Assembly: GCA_947478865.1 (NCBI GenBank)
Contig: CANJXF010000011.1
Location: forward strand, 1 to 64,000
Direction of reading: 5' to 3'
Source of the DNA: Verrucomicrobiales bacterium
GTDB lineage: Bacteria > Verrucomicrobiota > Verrucomicrobiia > Limisphaerales > CANJXF01
DNA: 64,000 nt
Part shown: positions 51,376 to 60,484 of the stretch, piece by piece
Numbering within the stretch: position 1 is the first letter of the stretch
Layout: the number at the start of each line of letters is the position of its first letter
Notes under the pieces: generated by a model
What the model was told of the DNA's origin: nothing
Databases searched by the model: none
Seen by the model: the letters and a program-made list of their open reading frames with translations, nothing else
Position numbers and translations under genes: made by a program

Positions 51376-52899
51376 CTATTTTTTAACCGCGGTCTCCAGC
51401 ACTTTCACCAATGCCTCGATCGTGTGCGGTTTGGCCTCGAGGTGCGCCTTCAAACCCAGCGCCACGATCGCTTTCGATGTTTCGGGGCCAATGGAAACCA
51501 GCTTCATCCCGGGAAATTTTTTCAAAAGGGCCGGCAGGTTGAATCGCGCGTGAAAATTCTCCACCGTGGAGGCGCTCGTAAACGTGATCCAATCCGCGCC
51601 TGATTCATTCAAGCTGGCCGCGGCGCCACTGATGTCTTCGCTTTCGGGAATGGTCTTGTAGCAGGCGACGTCATCCACAATTGCGCCCAGCTCTTCCAAT
51701 TTCTGCGGCAGCTCGCGGTTGGCCACCTCCGCGCGCAGCAGCAGCATCTTGAGATTCTCAACGCTTTCGTATTTCTTGAATGCGTCGGCGATTTTCTTGG
51801 TGACGTATTCTTCCGGCATCAAATCGACTTTGAGATGGAGTTCCTTCAACTTCGCCGCCGTCGCAGGACCGATCGCCGCAATGCGCACGCCGCCAATGTC
51901 GCGCAGATCTTCGAATGCCTTGAAGAACATCTCGAAAAAGGTCGTGACTCCGTTCGGGCTGGTGAAGATGAGCCAATCATAGGAATTTAGGTCGAGCAAC
52001 ACTTCCGCGAATTGCAGTTGCTCGGTCGGCGGAACAATCTTGATCGTTGGGATTTCCAGAACCTCGGCGCCGCGATCCAGCAACTGCTTGGAAAGTTGGC
52101 TCGCCTGGTCACGGGTGCGCGTCACCACGATTCGCCTGCCGAACAGAGGACGTTTTTCAAACCAGTTTAATTTCTTCCGCAGCTTCACGACGTCGCCGAC
52201 GACGGTGACCGCCGGCGCCGAGAACTTTGCTTTCTCCGCCTCATCCGAAATCGTTGCCAGCGTTCCTTCGATGGATTGCTGCTGGCCCGTGGTGGCCCAA
52301 CGCACCATCGCAACGGGAGTCCCCGCGGCAAGTCCGTGGGAAATCAATGCGGCGGTGATATCGCGAATGCGTTGAACGCCCATCAGAATAACCTTCGTGC
52401 CGGGAATCTTCGCGACTTTTGACCAGTCCACGTTGGTTCCGTCTTTCGCGGGATTTTCATGGCCGGTGATGACGGTGTAGGAGGAGGAATGTTCACGATG
52501 CGTCATCGGAATCCCGGCGTAATTTAGCGCCGCGATGCTCGAGGAAATCCCGGGCACGACCTCAAATGAAATCTCCGCATCGAACAATTCCTCAGCCTCT
52601 TCGCCGCCACGGCCGAACACGTAAGGATCGCCACCCTTCAGCCGCACCACGCATTTGCCTTCCCGCGCTTTGGTCACGAGCAGGCCGCTAAGTTCTTCCT
52701 GCGACATCGCGTGATCTTTGCAGCGTTTTCCCGCGTAAATAATTTCCGCCTTCGGCGCAAGCCGCAGCAGATCGGTATTCACGAGCGCATCGTAGATCAC
52801 CACGTCGGCGCGACCCAACAACTCCGCGCCACGCAACGTGAGCAATCCCGCGTCGCCCGGGCCGGCACCGATCAAATAAACAATTCCTTTGGACTTCAT
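51376..52899 (-). CDS. cobA/hemD: fused uroporphyrinogen-III C-methyltransferase and uroporphyrinogen-III synthase
   Basis: 507 residues. Residues 1-245 are SUMT (YLIGAGPGDAGLLTLRGAELL, VRLKGGDPYVFGRGGEEAEEL, VVPGISSSIAALNYAGIPMTHRE, HENPAKDG), making precorrin-2/sirohydrochlorin precursors. Residues ~253-505 are HemD (RIVVTRTRDQASQLSKQLLDRGAEVLEIPTI, WLIFTSPNGVTTFFE, RIAAIGPATAAKL, WITFTSASTVENF), closing hydroxymethylbilane to uroporphyrinogen III. The fusion puts synthesis and methylation of uroporphyrinogen III in one polypeptide at the siroheme branch point. Last gene of the hem operon; its start overlaps the hemC stop by one base. Confidence 0.95.
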   Translation of the reverse strand: MKSKGIVYLIGAGPGDAGLLTLRGAELLGRADVVIYDALVNTDLLRLAPKAEIIYAGKRCKDHAMSQEELSGLLVTKAREGKCVVRLKGGDPYVFGRGGEEAEELFDAEISFEVVPGISSSIAALNYAGIPMTHREHSSSYTVITGHENPAKDGTNVDWSKVAKIPGTKVILMGVQRIRDITAALISHGLAAGTPVAMVRWATTGQQQSIEGTLATISDEAEKAKFSAPAVTVVGDVVKLRKKLNWFEKRPLFGRRIVVTRTRDQASQLSKQLLDRGAEVLEIPTIKIVPPTEQLQFAEVLLDLNSYDWLIFTSPNGVTTFFEMFFKAFEDLRDIGGVRIAAIGPATAAKLKELHLKVDLMPEEYVTKKIADAFKKYESVENLKMLLLRAEVANRELPQKLEELGAIVDDVACYKTIPESEDISGAAASLNESGADWITFTSASTVENFHARFNLPALLKKFPGMKLVSIGPETSKAIVALGLKAHLEAKPHTIEALVKVLETAVKK

Positions 52900-53843
52900 T
52901 AAGTTCTTAATTCACTCGCCAGCTGCTCGCCTAATTCGGCCGCTTGATTCAGCGGACCCCGGCGCTCGCCGCGCCGGACAATTTTTGATAGATAGGAAAC
53001 CGCGCGCAGCCAGATCTCGTTTCCGACAATTTCCGCATAAGCTGCCACAGCACTTTGGCAACCGCCACCCATCCCTCGCAGAAAGGCGCGTTCCGCCGTG
53101 ACGCAATGCCACGTCGCGCTGTCGTTCAGCTTTTCGCAAACCGCGTCAATCCGCGGATCATTTTCGCGCGACTCAATTCCGATCGCGGCTTGGCCAACGC
53201 ATGGCAGCATATCCGCCGCTTCAATCGGCGTGGCGAAAACTCCCTCGGGAATTCCTTCGCCGGACAGAACTCCATTTGCGTCGATTTGAAATTTCAGCCG
53301 ATGCAAACCCGCAGCGGCCAAAATGGTTCCGTGCAGCTCGGGATTGCTCGCGAGCTTTTGCAGCCGCGTCCCGACATTTCCGCGAATCGGAACAATCTTT
53401 AAGTCCGGACGGCGCTCGAGCAGTTGCGCGCTGCGCCGCGTGCTGCTTGTGGCAATCGTCGCGCCCTGCGGCAAATCAGCGACGTGCATTTTGGTTTTGC
53501 CAATCAGAACATCGCGGACATCCACGCGCTTTCCCGCCGCGCCGAGCTTCAATCCGTCCGGCAAAATCGTGGGCAAATCCTTCAAGCTATGAACGGCGAA
53601 ATCGGCTTCGCCACTCAGCATCGCGTCTTCTAGCTCCTTCGTGAAAAGTCCGCGCGGCAGCGTGGCATCAATGCGCGCCATCGACGCCTTTTGCAATTTG
53701 TCGCCGGTGGTTTTGATGATCTTTAATTCGAAGCTTTGCTCCGGAAACTGCGAGCGGCAGAAGGCCAGCACCGCGTTGGATTGTGCGAGTGCCAGCGCGC
53801 TGCCGCGCGTGGCGATGTAAATGGTTTTATCGGTTGAGCTCAT
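52899..53843 (-). CDS. hemC: hydroxymethylbilane synthase (porphobilinogen deaminase)
   Basis: 314 residues. Polymerises four porphobilinogens into hydroxymethylbilane. YIATRGSALALAQSNAV at the N-terminus, FTKELEDAMLSGEADFAVHSLKDLP with the catalytic-site Asp, [10 protein letters not shown] and RGNVGTRLQKL follow, and the dipyrromethane-cofactor cysteine lies in MGGGCQSAVAAYA near residue 243. Complete. Lies 58 bases after hemA and overlaps the next gene by one base. Confidence 0.97.
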   Translation of the reverse strand: MSSTDKTIYIATRGSALALAQSNAVLAFCRSQFPEQSFELKIIKTTGDKLQKASMARIDATLPRGLFTKELEDAMLSGEADFAVHSLKDLPTILPDGLKLGAAGKRVDVRDVLIGKTKMHVADLPQGATIATSSTRRSAQLLERRPDLKIVPIRGNVGTRLQKLASNPELHGTILAAAGLHRLKFQIDANGVLSGEGIPEGVFATPIEAADMLPCVGQAAIGIESRENDPRIDAVCEKLNDSATWHCVTAERAFLRGMGGGCQSAVAAYAEIVGNEIWLRAVSYLSKIVRRGERRGPLNQAAELGEQLASELRT

Positions 53844-53901
53844 TTATTTTGAAAGGTGAACGGAGCGGGAAAACCTTCGCCCGCGCGCCGCCGCTTTGAC
53901 T

Positions 53902-54954
53902 TCATTCGTAGGCTAGCTTGGAGCCAGAGTGCGACACGTTGGAAGAGGAAAATTGCAGGAGCGCTTTGGCTTTTTCGCTGATAATCTTTTCGCACTGCAC
54001 CACTTCGCTGCGGCGTTGTTCAAGGTAATCGGCGGCGATCGCCTGGAGATCATCAATATTGTAAAGATAGACGTTTTCCAAAAAGTTGACCTCGGGATCA
54101 ATGTCGCGCGGCACGGCAATATCGATGAGCAAGAGCGAACGGTTTTTGCGCAGCTTCATCAGCGGCTCCAGTTTGGCGCGGTCCAGAATGTGATGCGGCG
54201 CGGCGGTGCTGCTGATGACAATGTCCACATTGGCAAACTCGCTGGCCCAATTATCAAAATGCACGGCGCGTCCGTTCAACTCTGCCGCAAGCGCCACCGC
54301 GCGGTCATGGGAGCGATTTGAAACGAGAATGCTGTTTGCCCCGCGGGAGAGAAGGGCGCGCGCCGTTTTCTCGCTGGTCTCGCCCGCGCCAATCACCATG
54401 ACCTGGCGATCGCCGAGCGAATTGAAAATCTTCTGCGCCAGTTCCACCGCAACGGATCCCACCGAGACGCTGCCGCGCTGGATATTCGTTTCCGTGCGGA
54501 TTTGCTTGGAGACATTAAAGGCGCGCTGGAACGCTTTGTTGAGCCGGCCGCCGGTGTGTTTGTGGTTCAATGCGAGATCGTAAGCCTTTTTCAACTGGCC
54601 GAGGATTTCCGTCTCGCCGAGCACCATGGAATCGAGGCCGCATGCGACTTTGAAGAGATGTTCCAAACTCTTTGGTTCGCCGAGGGTGTAGATTTCCCCA
54701 TTGAGCGGCTCGCGGTAGTTGTGGTGGTCGATCAGGAAATTGTGCAGCGCCGGAAACGCCTGGCGTGGATCGAGTTGGGTTGCGACATAGATCTCCACCC
54801 GGTTGCAGGTGGAAAGAATCACCGCCTCCTCCGCGATTCCCGCCGTGCGCAGTTTCTGCAGGGTTTCGGGGATAATGGTCTCAGAAAAAGCAAACCGTTC
54901 CCGCACCGTGACGGGCGAGGAATGATGGCTTAATCCAATGACAACAATGGGCAT
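53902..54954 (-). CDS. hemA: glutamyl-tRNA reductase
   Basis: 350 residues, somewhat shorter than the ~420 usual for the family because the C-terminal dimerisation helices are reduced. First committed step of C5-pathway haem synthesis: glutamyl-tRNA to glutamate-1-semialdehyde with NADPH. The nucleophile is Cys50 in ILSTCNRVEIYVA. LGETEILGQLKKAY, RTETNIQRGSVSVGSVAVELA, VMVIGAGETSEKTA and the IDIAVPRDIDPEV segment are all in place. Three bases separate it from the upstream ccsA/hemX gene. Confidence 0.96.
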   Translation of the reverse strand: MPIVVIGLSHHSSPVTVRERFAFSETIIPETLQKLRTAGIAEEAVILSTCNRVEIYVATQLDPRQAFPALHNFLIDHHNYREPLNGEIYTLGEPKSLEHLFKVACGLDSMVLGETEILGQLKKAYDLALNHKHTGGRLNKAFQRAFNVSKQIRTETNIQRGSVSVGSVAVELAQKIFNSLGDRQVMVIGAGETSEKTARALLSRGANSILVSNRSHDRAVALAAELNGRAVHFDNWASEFANVDIVISSTAAPHHILDRAKLEPLMKLRKNRSLLLIDIAVPRDIDPEVNFLENVYLYNIDDLQAIAADYLEQRRSEVVQCEKIISEKAKALLQFSSSNVSHSGSKLAYE

Positions 54955-54957
54955 GAG

Positions 54958-55860
54958 CTAAGGTTCGGCTGGCGGGTTGTAGTTGGCGAACTGTTCGATG
55001 GCCGCTTTTTTGAGCATGGACCCGCGCTCCGCTTTGGCGTTGGGAGAATGCAGCGGCGACATCAAACTGGACCCCCAGAATGTCAGCGCAACGAAAATAA
55101 ATAATCCGATTGTTCCCCAGGCAAAGCGGCGTCCGCGCTGCGAGAATTTCCAGCGCATTAAAATCAAACCCAGGCACATCAACCAGACGAGCGCGGACCA
55201 AAGAATTTTCGGAGCATCCTGGGCGAAGTCACCACGGATCTGATTGAACCAAACCGCGCTCACCAACAATCCAACGCTCAGCATGACGAAGCCGCCGAGG
55301 AGGAGGCGGCCCATGACGAGTTCCAGTCGTTGAATCGGCGGCAGCAGCGAAACGACCGCGCGAAGTTTATGGAACTTCAGATTGTGCTCCTGGGTGAGAT
55401 ACATCATTCCGGCCACCGAACTGAGGCCGAACGCACCATACGAAAGGGCAAACAGCGCCACATGAAGACTCAGCCAACCGCCGGTGAATTGCGGCACGGT
55501 CGTCTGCACATCGAGACCGGGCATAAGCGCAAAGACGCCGATCGCGAAAAGGATGGGCGAGGCGAACGCGCCGAGAAAACGAAGGCGCGACCAAATGCCG
55601 AGCAAAAGGTAAGAGGCGACCATCGTCCAGGTGACAAACATGGTGGCTTCAAAGAGGTTGTGGACCGGGCAGCGTTCGAGGGAAAAACCCCTTTTCACCA
55701 TTGCCGTTGTGTGAAAAACCGAGGCAATCAGAAGCAGGCTGTAGTTGACGCGGTTGTCCTGACGAAATCCTTTTCGCCAAAGAAAAAAGGAGTAAACCAT
55801 GCTGATTCCGTAGAAGAGCACAGCCAGAGCGAAAGAAGTTTTATCAGTCAGCCAAACCAC
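54958..55860 (-). CDS. CcsA/HemX-type cytochrome c assembly membrane protein
   Basis: 300 residues with eight or nine helices. The haem-handling WWD-like segment reads GGWLSLHVALFALSYGAFGLSS; conserved His residues in FHTTAMVKRG, PVHNLFEATMF and LSLHV are present as in CcsA/ResC/HemX. Such genes stand next to hemA in many bacteria, either delivering haem for cytochrome c maturation or modulating HemA. First gene of the haem operon here. The other cytochrome c maturation proteins are not in the window. Confidence 0.88.
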   Translation of the reverse strand: MVWLTDKTSFALAVLFYGISMVYSFFLWRKGFRQDNRVNYSLLLIASVFHTTAMVKRGFSLERCPVHNLFEATMFVTWTMVASYLLLGIWSRLRFLGAFASPILFAIGVFALMPGLDVQTTVPQFTGGWLSLHVALFALSYGAFGLSSVAGMMYLTQEHNLKFHKLRAVVSLLPPIQRLELVMGRLLLGGFVMLSVGLLVSAVWFNQIRGDFAQDAPKILWSALVWLMCLGLILMRWKFSQRGRRFAWGTIGLFIFVALTFWGSSLMSPLHSPNAKAERGSMLKKAAIEQFANYNPPAEP

Positions 55861-55917: not shown

Positions 55918-57303
55918 TTAGGGCTTGAAGGGGACGGCGTTGCGAAAGGTGGTTTCCACCTGGCCGGGAGGGCGCCCTGAATTGTAAGCCAGTCCCGCCA
56001 TCATGCCGCTGGCCAGCGCCGTGGAAACGGAGGTGCCATTGACGTAATAACTGGTTCCAGCATACGAAATCACCGTGGCTCCGGGAAGAATGACATCCAC
56101 GAAATCACCGCGGTTGGCGTAGGGGGCAACCGCGCCGGTTCGATCTCCAGCCGAGGTAACAGCGATGACCGTGGGGTAAGCCGCCGGATAGGTCGGCGTC
56201 GTCACGGGCTGATTTCCGGCTGCCGCGAAAATCGGGATGTTTTTCTGCGAAACCTGCTGGATCAAATTCGCGAGGAATGCGCTATCCCCTTCGCTGCCCA
56301 GGCTGAGCGAGAGAATATTTGCGCCCCCGTTGACCGCTGCCGTGATTCCTTGCGCCACGTTGAAGGTGGTAGTCGTCGGATTCGGGCCGTAAACGTCCAC
56401 TGGCAGGATTTTGATCGAGGCGGACTGCCCGGTAATGGTGCTGTTGAGACCGAGCAACATCGATTCCGCCATGCTCGTGCCGTGCATTGGCACATCCCCG
56501 TTGACGTTCGCTTCACCGGCAACCGATAGGCTCGAGAGCATAAACCCCTGCATGTTTTCGTTTAACCGCTGGACCGCCGTATCGATCAGGCCGATCACAA
56601 TTTGTTTTCCATCACCCGGCCCGGCCTCCGCCTTGAGATTGAAGGGCGAACTCCCATTGACCGAGGCCATGGCGAATGGGCTTGGTTTTTCCAGCGAATA
56701 ATTGGAATCGATCGAAGCCACGCTGTCCACGTGCGAAAGCTGTTCGCGCGCCGCGTTCGCAGCCACTTCATCGGGAAACTCGAGCAAATACGAATTGGTT
56801 CCCTCCAGTTTGCCGATGATTTTGCCGCCGAGCTGCTGCGCCAGCGCGTCGATGTTCATGGAGGAACCGGGCTTCAGCGTCACGATGAGATGATTCTTGA
56901 TCACCTTGTTTTTGCCGAGAATGACTTTATTTTTCTCGGTTCGGATCAGTTGCGTCGCTTTTGCTGCCTCGCTGCGAAACACCAGCAGGCGCGGCACCGA
57001 GTTGCTTTGGGGAGAGATTTCAAAACTGAGTTTGCCGAGCAGGAAGCGCAGGGCATCGCTGGTTGGCAGATTTTTAAATGTTGCCGAAGCCGAACTTGAG
57101 CTGCCCGGTTCAATGTAAATTTCCCAACCGGTCAGAGCGCCAATTTTCTGGAGCAACGGCTGGAGTTCAACCCCCGCCAAGTCCGCATCGAAAGTCTTTT
57201 TATCGGCGTGCCAGACCAGGGATTCCTTCGCCGCGCAGGCGGTCCATGCGAAAAGAAAGAGCGCGAGGCAGGACGCGCCAAATTGCACAAAGCATTTTCT
57301 CAT
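55918..57303 (-). CDS. exported subtilisin-like protease with N-terminal STN-like domain
   Basis: 461 residues with a signal peptide (QFGASCLALFLFAWTACAAK). Residues ~30-115 resemble a secretin/TonB short N-terminal (STN) domain: FDADLAGVELQPLLQKIGALTGWEIYIEPG, then ATFKNLPTSDALRFLLGKL. Residues ~135-205 look like an I9-type propeptide (HLIVTLKPGSSMNIDALAQQLGGKIIG). The S8 catalytic domain follows with Asp in IGLIDTAVQ, His in PMHGTSMAES and Ser in NGTSVSTALASGMMAG; the oxyanion Asn lies in AAAGNQ. The triad is intact, so it should be active in the periplasm or outside. The STN fusion is unusual. Confidence 0.85.
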   Translation of the reverse strand: MRKCFVQFGASCLALFLFAWTACAAKESLVWHADKKTFDADLAGVELQPLLQKIGALTGWEIYIEPGSSSSASATFKNLPTSDALRFLLGKLSFEISPQSNSVPRLLVFRSEAAKATQLIRTEKNKVILGKNKVIKNHLIVTLKPGSSMNIDALAQQLGGKIIGKLEGTNSYLLEFPDEVAANAAREQLSHVDSVASIDSNYSLEKPSPFAMASVNGSSPFNLKAEAGPGDGKQIVIGLIDTAVQRLNENMQGFMLSSLSVAGEANVNGDVPMHGTSMAESMLLGLNSTITGQSASIKILPVDVYGPNPTTTTFNVAQGITAAVNGGANILSLSLGSEGDSAFLANLIQQVSQKNIPIFAAAGNQPVTTPTYPAAYPTVIAVTSAGDRTGAVAPYANRGDFVDVILPGATVISYAGTSYYVNGTSVSTALASGMMAGLAYNSGRPPGQVETTFRNAVPFKP

Positions 57304-58807: not shown

Positions 58808-60361
58808 CTAGGGAGCGGAGAGTCGGAAGAATTGCGCGGCAGCAGCCATCGGGATTGTGACCCGGTTTTGATTGTTCGTAACCACAACGGTGTTGGTCAC
58901 GACGGTCCAGGCCATGGGAGGATTCAGGTCCGGCGCGGCTTGGAGAGAAAAGCCGCTGGGTAGAATTGGCCATTCCAAAATCGCCTGATTTCCCGAACGC
59001 GTCACTTGCAGGGGCAACGTGAAGAAATGGAAGGCCATCGCGTAGCTCTCGCCATTGGAGACTTTCCCCATGCCGCCCTTTTTGAAGACTTGCAGGTCGT
59101 ATCGCCCCGGAGCCAGACCGGTCGCGAAGAGGTGTTCGACGTTATCCACCGTGCTCGTGCTGGCCGCAATCAGATTGGTAGTGGCCACGCGGTAGAGGAA
59201 AAGATCGAGGTTGTTAATATTCGTTTTTAGCGTCTGCCGGTTCCAAACCAAGGTCGCATTGACCGTGAGCCCGGCGGGAACGTTAAAATAATAGTGGTTC
59301 ACGGTTTCCGCCATGACGCTGCTGCTGATCGAGTTAAAATCCCATCCGATGAGCGTGGAGAGGTTCGAGGTGCTGTTGCCGGGCGGGTGCGCGGCGTCCA
59401 AGCCGATCGAACTCGATTCCACGAAAGCGAATTTGCCCGCCGCGAGTTGTTTGTAGGAATTGAAAACGTTGAGAATGCCCGCGCCAAACCGCGGATCGAG
59501 CGGAGCGGTGGCGGTATGAGTCCAATTGCTCGGCTTCACCGCGCCATTGAGCAGGAGCGCCTTGATCGTGCGAATGTCATTCGCGGCGTTGGTGGTGCCG
59601 GTGCCGGCATCGCCGCGAAGTCCGGCCTGCACCAGGATCGCCCCGGCTCCAGCGACCTGCGGAGTCGAAAAACTGGTCGCGCCAGCCGGTGCGGTGATGT
59701 CGGGTTTGGAGCGGCTGTTATCCAAGGTCGGGCCGACGCTGGAATCGCCGCCGAACGCGCCGACGCCGATTCCATTGTAAGCCGTGGCGGGGGCGTTCGG
59801 CGGGCCGCTGTTGCCCGCGCCGGAAACGAAGAGCGTATTTTTTTGCGCGGCATAATCGTCGTAATCAGAATCGAGGGTGGTCTGCGGCGGTGATGCGCCA
59901 AAGTTAAAGCTTTGATTGACGATTTTGGCCTGGATCGCCGTGCCAAGGGTAATAAACGGTTCGTAAAAATAATTGGCGTCGTAGTTATCCACGTGCGCCA
60001 CGCCGGGAGCGACACCCAGCGACGTTCCATAAAAATATCCGCCCACCGCGTCGGCGTGATCGGAGTCGGTGCCCAAAGCGTTGGGAAAAGCCGAAGAGGT
60101 TCCGTCTTGCGAGATGTAGCTAAAGAGACTGACCGGCTGGCCGACGATGGATGGAGTCACTTCCCAGGCCGTGGCCGCGTAATAGGGCGCTTCCGGCTGC
60201 GCCACCTTCACCCCGGTGCCGATCAAGGTGGGATCCGTAGAACGCAACAAGCTCACGCCGGTGGCATCGAGGGTGGTCGCACGGGCAGAAACGAAAGGGG
60301 CGGCGATTAAAATTAAGCAGAGCGCGGCTCGGTTTTTGACAGTCATTCGAGTGGGAGCCAT
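58808..60361 (-). CDS. secreted S8-like subtilase with altered catalytic Asp
   Basis: 517 residues from MAPTRMTVKNRAAL with a signal peptide ending near SARATT. The family Ser lies in GATSFSTPQVAGAGA, a His in GTDSDHADAVGGY and the oxyanion Asn in SGAGNSGPP. At the position where subtilases read V(A/G)(V/I)(L/I)DTG, this protein reads GVKVAQPEAP, with Glu instead of Asp. That is either a changed triad or loss of activity. The region after ~320 is a P-domain-like/jelly-roll part (TVNATLVWNRQTLKTNINNLDLFLY), with a C-terminal module ending FFRLSAP. Extracellular. Confidence 0.75.
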   Translation of the reverse strand: MAPTRMTVKNRAALCLILIAAPFVSARATTLDATGVSLLRSTDPTLIGTGVKVAQPEAPYYAATAWEVTPSIVGQPVSLFSYISQDGTSSAFPNALGTDSDHADAVGGYFYGTSLGVAPGVAHVDNYDANYFYEPFITLGTAIQAKIVNQSFNFGASPPQTTLDSDYDDYAAQKNTLFVSGAGNSGPPNAPATAYNGIGVGAFGGDSSVGPTLDNSRSKPDITAPAGATSFSTPQVAGAGAILVQAGLRGDAGTGTTNAANDIRTIKALLLNGAVKPSNWTHTATAPLDPRFGAGILNVFNSYKQLAAGKFAFVESSSIGLDAAHPPGNSTSNLSTLIGWDFNSISSSVMAETVNHYYFNVPAGLTVNATLVWNRQTLKTNINNLDLFLYRVATTNLIAASTSTVDNVEHLFATGLAPGRYDLQVFKKGGMGKVSNGESYAMAFHFFTLPLQVTRSGNQAILEWPILPSGFSLQAAPDLNPPMAWTVVTNTVVVTNNQNRVTIPMAAAAQFFRLSAP

Positions 60362-60484
60362 TGTTTCAGACCGGCGGGAATTTTGCAATTGGTTGATCGT
60401 CGATTCCAGACGGCTTCGGGGGGATTGAACCCGCCGCAGAGATTTTCCCGATAAAGGCATCGTCCGCGAAAGTGCATGTAAGGA

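Follow-up and report, generated by a model that had tools for sequence, protein, structure and literature searches.

Background

Outside the proteins described here, the N0-type domain is known from the pores of bacterial secretion systems and from iron receptors. Subtilases of the S8 family such as Fervidolysin, pro-Tk-subtilisin and pro-subtilisin E combine a propeptide with a catalytic domain, the arrangement also found in the protein described here; we know of no protein of this type in which an N0 domain precedes the propeptide. In other systems, N0 domains make up assembly rings (PMC3093366), and STN domains pass on signals, as in cell-surface signalling (PMC11637429, PMC7186176). The literature searched yielded no description of an STN/N0-subtilase fusion.

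Gene and domain organisation

The gene lies on the minus strand of the window, the whole 64,000-nucleotide stretch of DNA analysed. Its open reading frame, 55918-57303, starts with ATG and encodes a product of 461 aa, in which the following features are distinguished, with their basis in brackets.

55918..57303, minus strand: whole gene, N0/STN-propeptide-S8 subtilase, 461 aa (ORF and full-length orthologs)
57229..57303, minus strand: signal peptide, residues 1-25, Sec type, with TACAA before KES (sequence; AF2 helix 2-22)
56974..57222, minus strand: predicted N0/STN-type domain, residues 28-110, beta-beta-alpha-beta-beta-alpha-beta-beta (profiles, AF2, Foldseek, hhalign)
56911..56973, minus strand: variable linker, residues 111-131 (13-26 aa among relatives; pLDDT down to 59)
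56689..56910, minus strand: Fervidolysin_NPro/I9-type propeptide, residues 132-205, beta-alpha-beta-beta-alpha-beta (Pfam, AF2, conservation, Foldseek)
56611..56688, minus strand: variable junction, residues 206-231, the presumed autoprocessing region (22-27 residues among relatives)
55984..56610, minus strand: S8 catalytic domain, residues 232-440, with D241, H274, N364 and S425 (Pfam, alignment)

This order of signal peptide, N0/STN domain, linker, I9-type propeptide, junction and S8 domain is almost certainly correct. The full-length AF2 model (pLDDT 92.2) assigns residues 28-109 to the strands and helices of N0, drops to low confidence at 121-130, and continues with a separate unit at 134-205 followed by the S8 domain, its top PDB neighbours in Foldseek being unautoprocessed pro-subtilisins. 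Mean pairwise identity among relatives is 46% in N0, 47% in the propeptide and 51% in the catalytic domain, against 26-27% in both linkers, which also vary in length, a pattern that points to three constrained globular domains and two loose tethers. The subtilase is an exported pro-protease with three globular domains joined by flexible linkers. Reading it as a lipoprotein was rejected, with a lipobox-like pattern in just 6/81 relatives.

In the window protein, Pfam matches Peptidase_S8 at residues 232-438 (E 3.7e-25, 89.3 bits vs a cut-off of 21.8) and Fervidolysin_NPro PF22148 at residues 130-196 (E 1.5e-6, 29 bits vs a cut-off of 21), with the Fervidolysin-type propeptide matched in 52/53 family members (E up to 1) and a conserved N201-Y202 at its end. 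A propeptide after the STN-like domain, as originally proposed, is confirmed by this match and by the separate AF2 unit 134-205. The claim of an intact S8 triad also holds: D241, N364 and S425 are invariant in 81 aligned relatives, and H274 is present in 80 of them, the remaining one being a masked X. By its sequence, with the Asp-His-Ser triad and the oxyanion Asn intact, the protein belongs to the S8 peptidases, and its catalytic part is small and thermitase-like. Membership of the Type VII mycosins was rejected (NCBIfam TIGR03921, 70.8 vs a cut-off of 278.75 bits), as was that of PatA and QhpE, whose NCBIfam matches are weak and far under the curated cut-offs. Pfam finds neither the secretin pore domain PF00263 nor the plug or beta-barrel of a TonB-dependent transducer in the window protein or in family members.

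The N-terminal domain

The window sequence alone gives no match to Pfam STN, and routine annotation would therefore miss the N-terminal domain; nor does any match in the window's own genome exceed the gathering cut-off. At the family level, Pfam STN matches 16/53 full-length proteins (best E 1.9e-4; best score an estimated ~22 bits, below the cut-off of 28.4) and half of the isolated N-domains (40/80, best E 2.0e-4, likewise below the curated cut-off by estimate), with type_II_gspD_N0 and DotD also matched. The practical rule for annotation is that Pfam run on single sequences overlooks the N0 domain of these subtilases.

Profile comparisons point to the same family. Searched against PDB sequences, a profile of 80 N-domains retrieves the BfpG lipoprotein best (1.9e-4), then PilQ, GspD and PulD, with secretins or BfpG making up 11 of the 13 matches, all but BfpG and one PilQ having E > 0.05. 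The same kind of profile, made solely of protease N-domains, retrieves proteins of sister genomes confirmed to be secretins (L242-L244, L246, L247) at E of about 1e-7 to 2e-3. In hhalign, the N-domain matches 20 Verrucomicrobiota STN domains from secretins and TonB receptors at 97.2% (E 4.7e-11) and the secretin STN domains alone at 97.1%, while the TonB-receptor STN domains, a small local set of four, reach 14.1%. The AF2 model built on 80 relatives has a pLDDT of 92.8, and its first 15 Foldseek matches in the PDB are all N0 or N-terminal domains of secretins (GspD, XcpQ, PilQ, LspD), individually moderate and mutually consistent (probability 0.91-1.00, E 0.003-0.07, TM 0.45-0.55). BfpG and PupB come next, and the list also includes PupR, FecA and FpvA.

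At the profile level the N-domain is homologous to secretin N0, and an N0 fold is predicted for it. The original prediction of an STN-like fold after the signal peptide is borne out by the family profiles, AF2/Foldseek and order-wide conservation, and the comparison it had proposed with STN and secretin models, by HMM and structure, supports N0 (hhalign 97%, Foldseek top 15).

Distribution and modularity

Full-length relatives occur in 85 of 97 genomes, a set made up of the genome of the window and further members of its order, mostly at 36-50% identity with a lowest value of 30%; several others hold contig-edge fragments, and the two genomes with no match at all are 57% and 71% complete. The N0-propeptide-S8 architecture is nearly universal in Limisphaerales, with a domain order common to the aligned relatives. 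A scan of public genomes with a 12-row alignment as query, a single-protein query having given no match, returned 80 loci, nearly all labelled Verrucomicrobia, subdivision 3, Pedosphaera or Limisphaerales. Across the phylum, 51/241 sampled genomes contain an S8 relative with E no higher than 1e-20. The plasmid search returned just ordinary S8 peptidases, none spanning 80% of the query.

The loci retrieved include about 20 proteins of genomes outside the class that show the order STN-like domain, fervidolysin propeptide, S8, with Pfam STN detected in 3/20 and two (L168 and L169) assigned by eye at profile E > 1; relatives retrieved within the class but from different orders have no STN. In the catalytic-domain tree, the Limisphaerales group has a support of 99, the second STN clade 98 (one member truncated) and the STN-less group 97. 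The presence of STN amounts to one change on this unrooted tree, which fits one gain alone as well as one gain and one loss, and the second STN-S8 clade is distant and placed within the same phylum. The census of STN-S8 fusions that had been suggested thus gives, for Verrucomicrobiota, near-universality in one order and a second clade.

The N-domain is also found in other company. It stands alone in two short exported proteins of 219 and 233 aa whose tails are rich in Gly, Pro and Ser (L052:2755-3411 and L054:2215-2913), precedes an EF-hand-like tail in another small exported protein (L250:834-1556), and is fused to a metzincin-like protease in L051:2336-3451 on the minus strand (motif HEMGHSLSLPH, weak Peptidase_M10 match, E 0.0011). 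These occurrences suggest that it is more than a folding helper for the S8 domain. A further candidate for a stand-alone N-domain, L053, was discarded as an ortholog cut by the contig end, and further weak N-domain matches on other contigs, considered as STN-S8 paralogs, turned out to be secretins, secretin-like or STN-like membrane proteins.

Two membrane-anchored proteins (L248:511-1629 and L249:803-1783) carry an STN-like stretch after a single transmembrane helix. Genome G071 holds a second, possibly decaying STN-S8 copy (L251:1221-2429), in which an in-frame TAA interrupts the match.

Gene neighbourhood

Downstream of the protease gene, on the same strand and after a 57 bp gap, lie ccsA, hemA, hemC and a cobA/hemD fusion (run at 51376-55860, minus strand). 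The linkage to the heme operon is real, yet the ccsA-hemA-hemC order recurs downstream in 8/80 related loci, and an operon-based partner was rejected on this ground. No conserved partner gene was found beside the protease in the 80 loci, and the genes adjoining it include no sigma or anti-sigma gene. The window's genome encodes three secretins, each matching the N-domain profile weakly and none close in sequence.

A second S8-like protein is encoded at 58808-60460 on the minus strand of the window. Its catalytic-Asp stretch reads GTGVKVAQPEA, without the Asp, the His- and Ser-like motifs are kept, and VAQPEA recurs in relative L102; judged from these motifs, it is possibly an inactive or altered subtilase. 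In L083, L102 and L150, a relative of this protein is encoded immediately upstream of the STN-S8 gene.

Proposed mechanism and alternatives

The explanation we favour as a whole, at a probability of roughly 55%, is an N0 docking domain joined to an I9-type propeptide and an S8 protease, giving a zymogen that is positioned in the envelope. The mechanism of zymogen docking, taken by itself, falls a little short of even odds. After Sec export, the propeptide would fold and inhibit the S8 protease, while the N0 domain would bind an envelope partner and hold the zymogen there. Autocleavage within the junction 206-231, expected from the S8 family, would then separate the N0-propeptide part from the protease, which could be freed or could stay bound without a covalent link, in a complex that is inhibited and locally anchored. 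In this way N0 would position the inhibitor or zymogen and set the site of activation. Since N0 and the propeptide lie together on one side of the expected cleavage junction, N0 would place the zymogen or the inhibited complex and would not tether the mature enzyme covalently, a tether that would exist only if processing does not happen.

A tethering or docking role of the N0 domain is plausible by analogy. The original prediction held that STN could attach the protease to a machine of the envelope or sense a partner; this agrees with N0 roles elsewhere, whereas most genomes offer no adjoining partner gene, and the idea of tethering the protease itself is weakened by the position of N0 before the propeptide, as autoprocessing would part it from the mature enzyme.

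The nearest competitor makes the N0-like domain a second pro-domain, serving folding, inhibition or zymogen oligomerisation and then discarded, without any outside partner. The position of N0, N-terminal to the propeptide with which it would be removed, suits this account, as does the equal conservation of the two; its own fold and variable linker, and the occurrence of N0-type domains alone and with an unrelated metalloprotease, speak against it and leave it rather unlikely. Distinctly less probable is regulated proteolysis, in which STN would bind or sense an anti-sigma factor of the FecR/PupR type or a TonB-transducer and bring the protease there. STN domains act so in cell-surface signalling (PMC11637429, PMC7186176), and PupB, PupR, FecA and FpvA are among the Foldseek matches; yet the profile agrees far better with secretin N0 (97.1%) than with the four local TonB-receptor STN domains (14.1%), and sigma and anti-sigma genes are absent from the adjacent genes.

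That the N-terminal part is simply an extended propeptide of the subtilase that resembles STN by chance, the reading named beforehand as fatal to the fusion, is very improbable. The single sequence does lack a Pfam STN match and both folds are small and alpha/beta, but a complete propeptide follows the N-domain in both Pfam and AF2, and structure prediction finds two separate domains. In hhalign, the N-domain scores 1.9% against its own propeptide and 0.1% against the catalytic domain, with the propeptide at 0.7% against STN, as opposed to 97% for the N-domain against secretin N0, and Foldseek also argues against the reading. With N0 and propeptide both present, it is refuted computationally.

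Beyond the docking of this one zymogen, Verrucomicrobiota might possess a family of exported proteases addressed by N0, S8 in type and metzincin-like in one genome, with the zymogen anchored at a secretion or pilus complex, as an order-wide core system of local envelope proteolysis; we regard this extension as speculative and doubtful.

Comparison with known systems

The presence of a soluble pro-protease with N0 in nearly every Limisphaerales genome widens the set of N0 proteins and offers a handle on the docking or control of such proteases in the cell envelope. An N0 domain on a pro-protease also predicts a docking partner, for which the domain could serve as bait. Mycosins, QhpE and PatA are likewise S8 subtilases and serve a defined machine or pathway, but the subtilase here scores far under all their curated cut-offs. 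The N-domain resembles secretin N0 (STN PF07660 / type_II_gspD_N0 PF21305, as in GspD, XcpQ and PilQ) in predicted fold, strand-helix order and sequence profile, whereas here it sits on a soluble protease without N1-N3 or a pore domain, and individual subtilase N-domains, unlike secretin N0, appear to fall under the Pfam cut-off. Closest in organisation are BfpG, which is also the best PDB sequence match, DotD and Xanthomonas VirB7, each a stand-alone N0 module that is exported and linked to a further part (PMC3093366); these belong to secretion or pilus complexes as lipoproteins, in contrast to the subtilases described here, which mostly lack a lipobox and have a protease attached.
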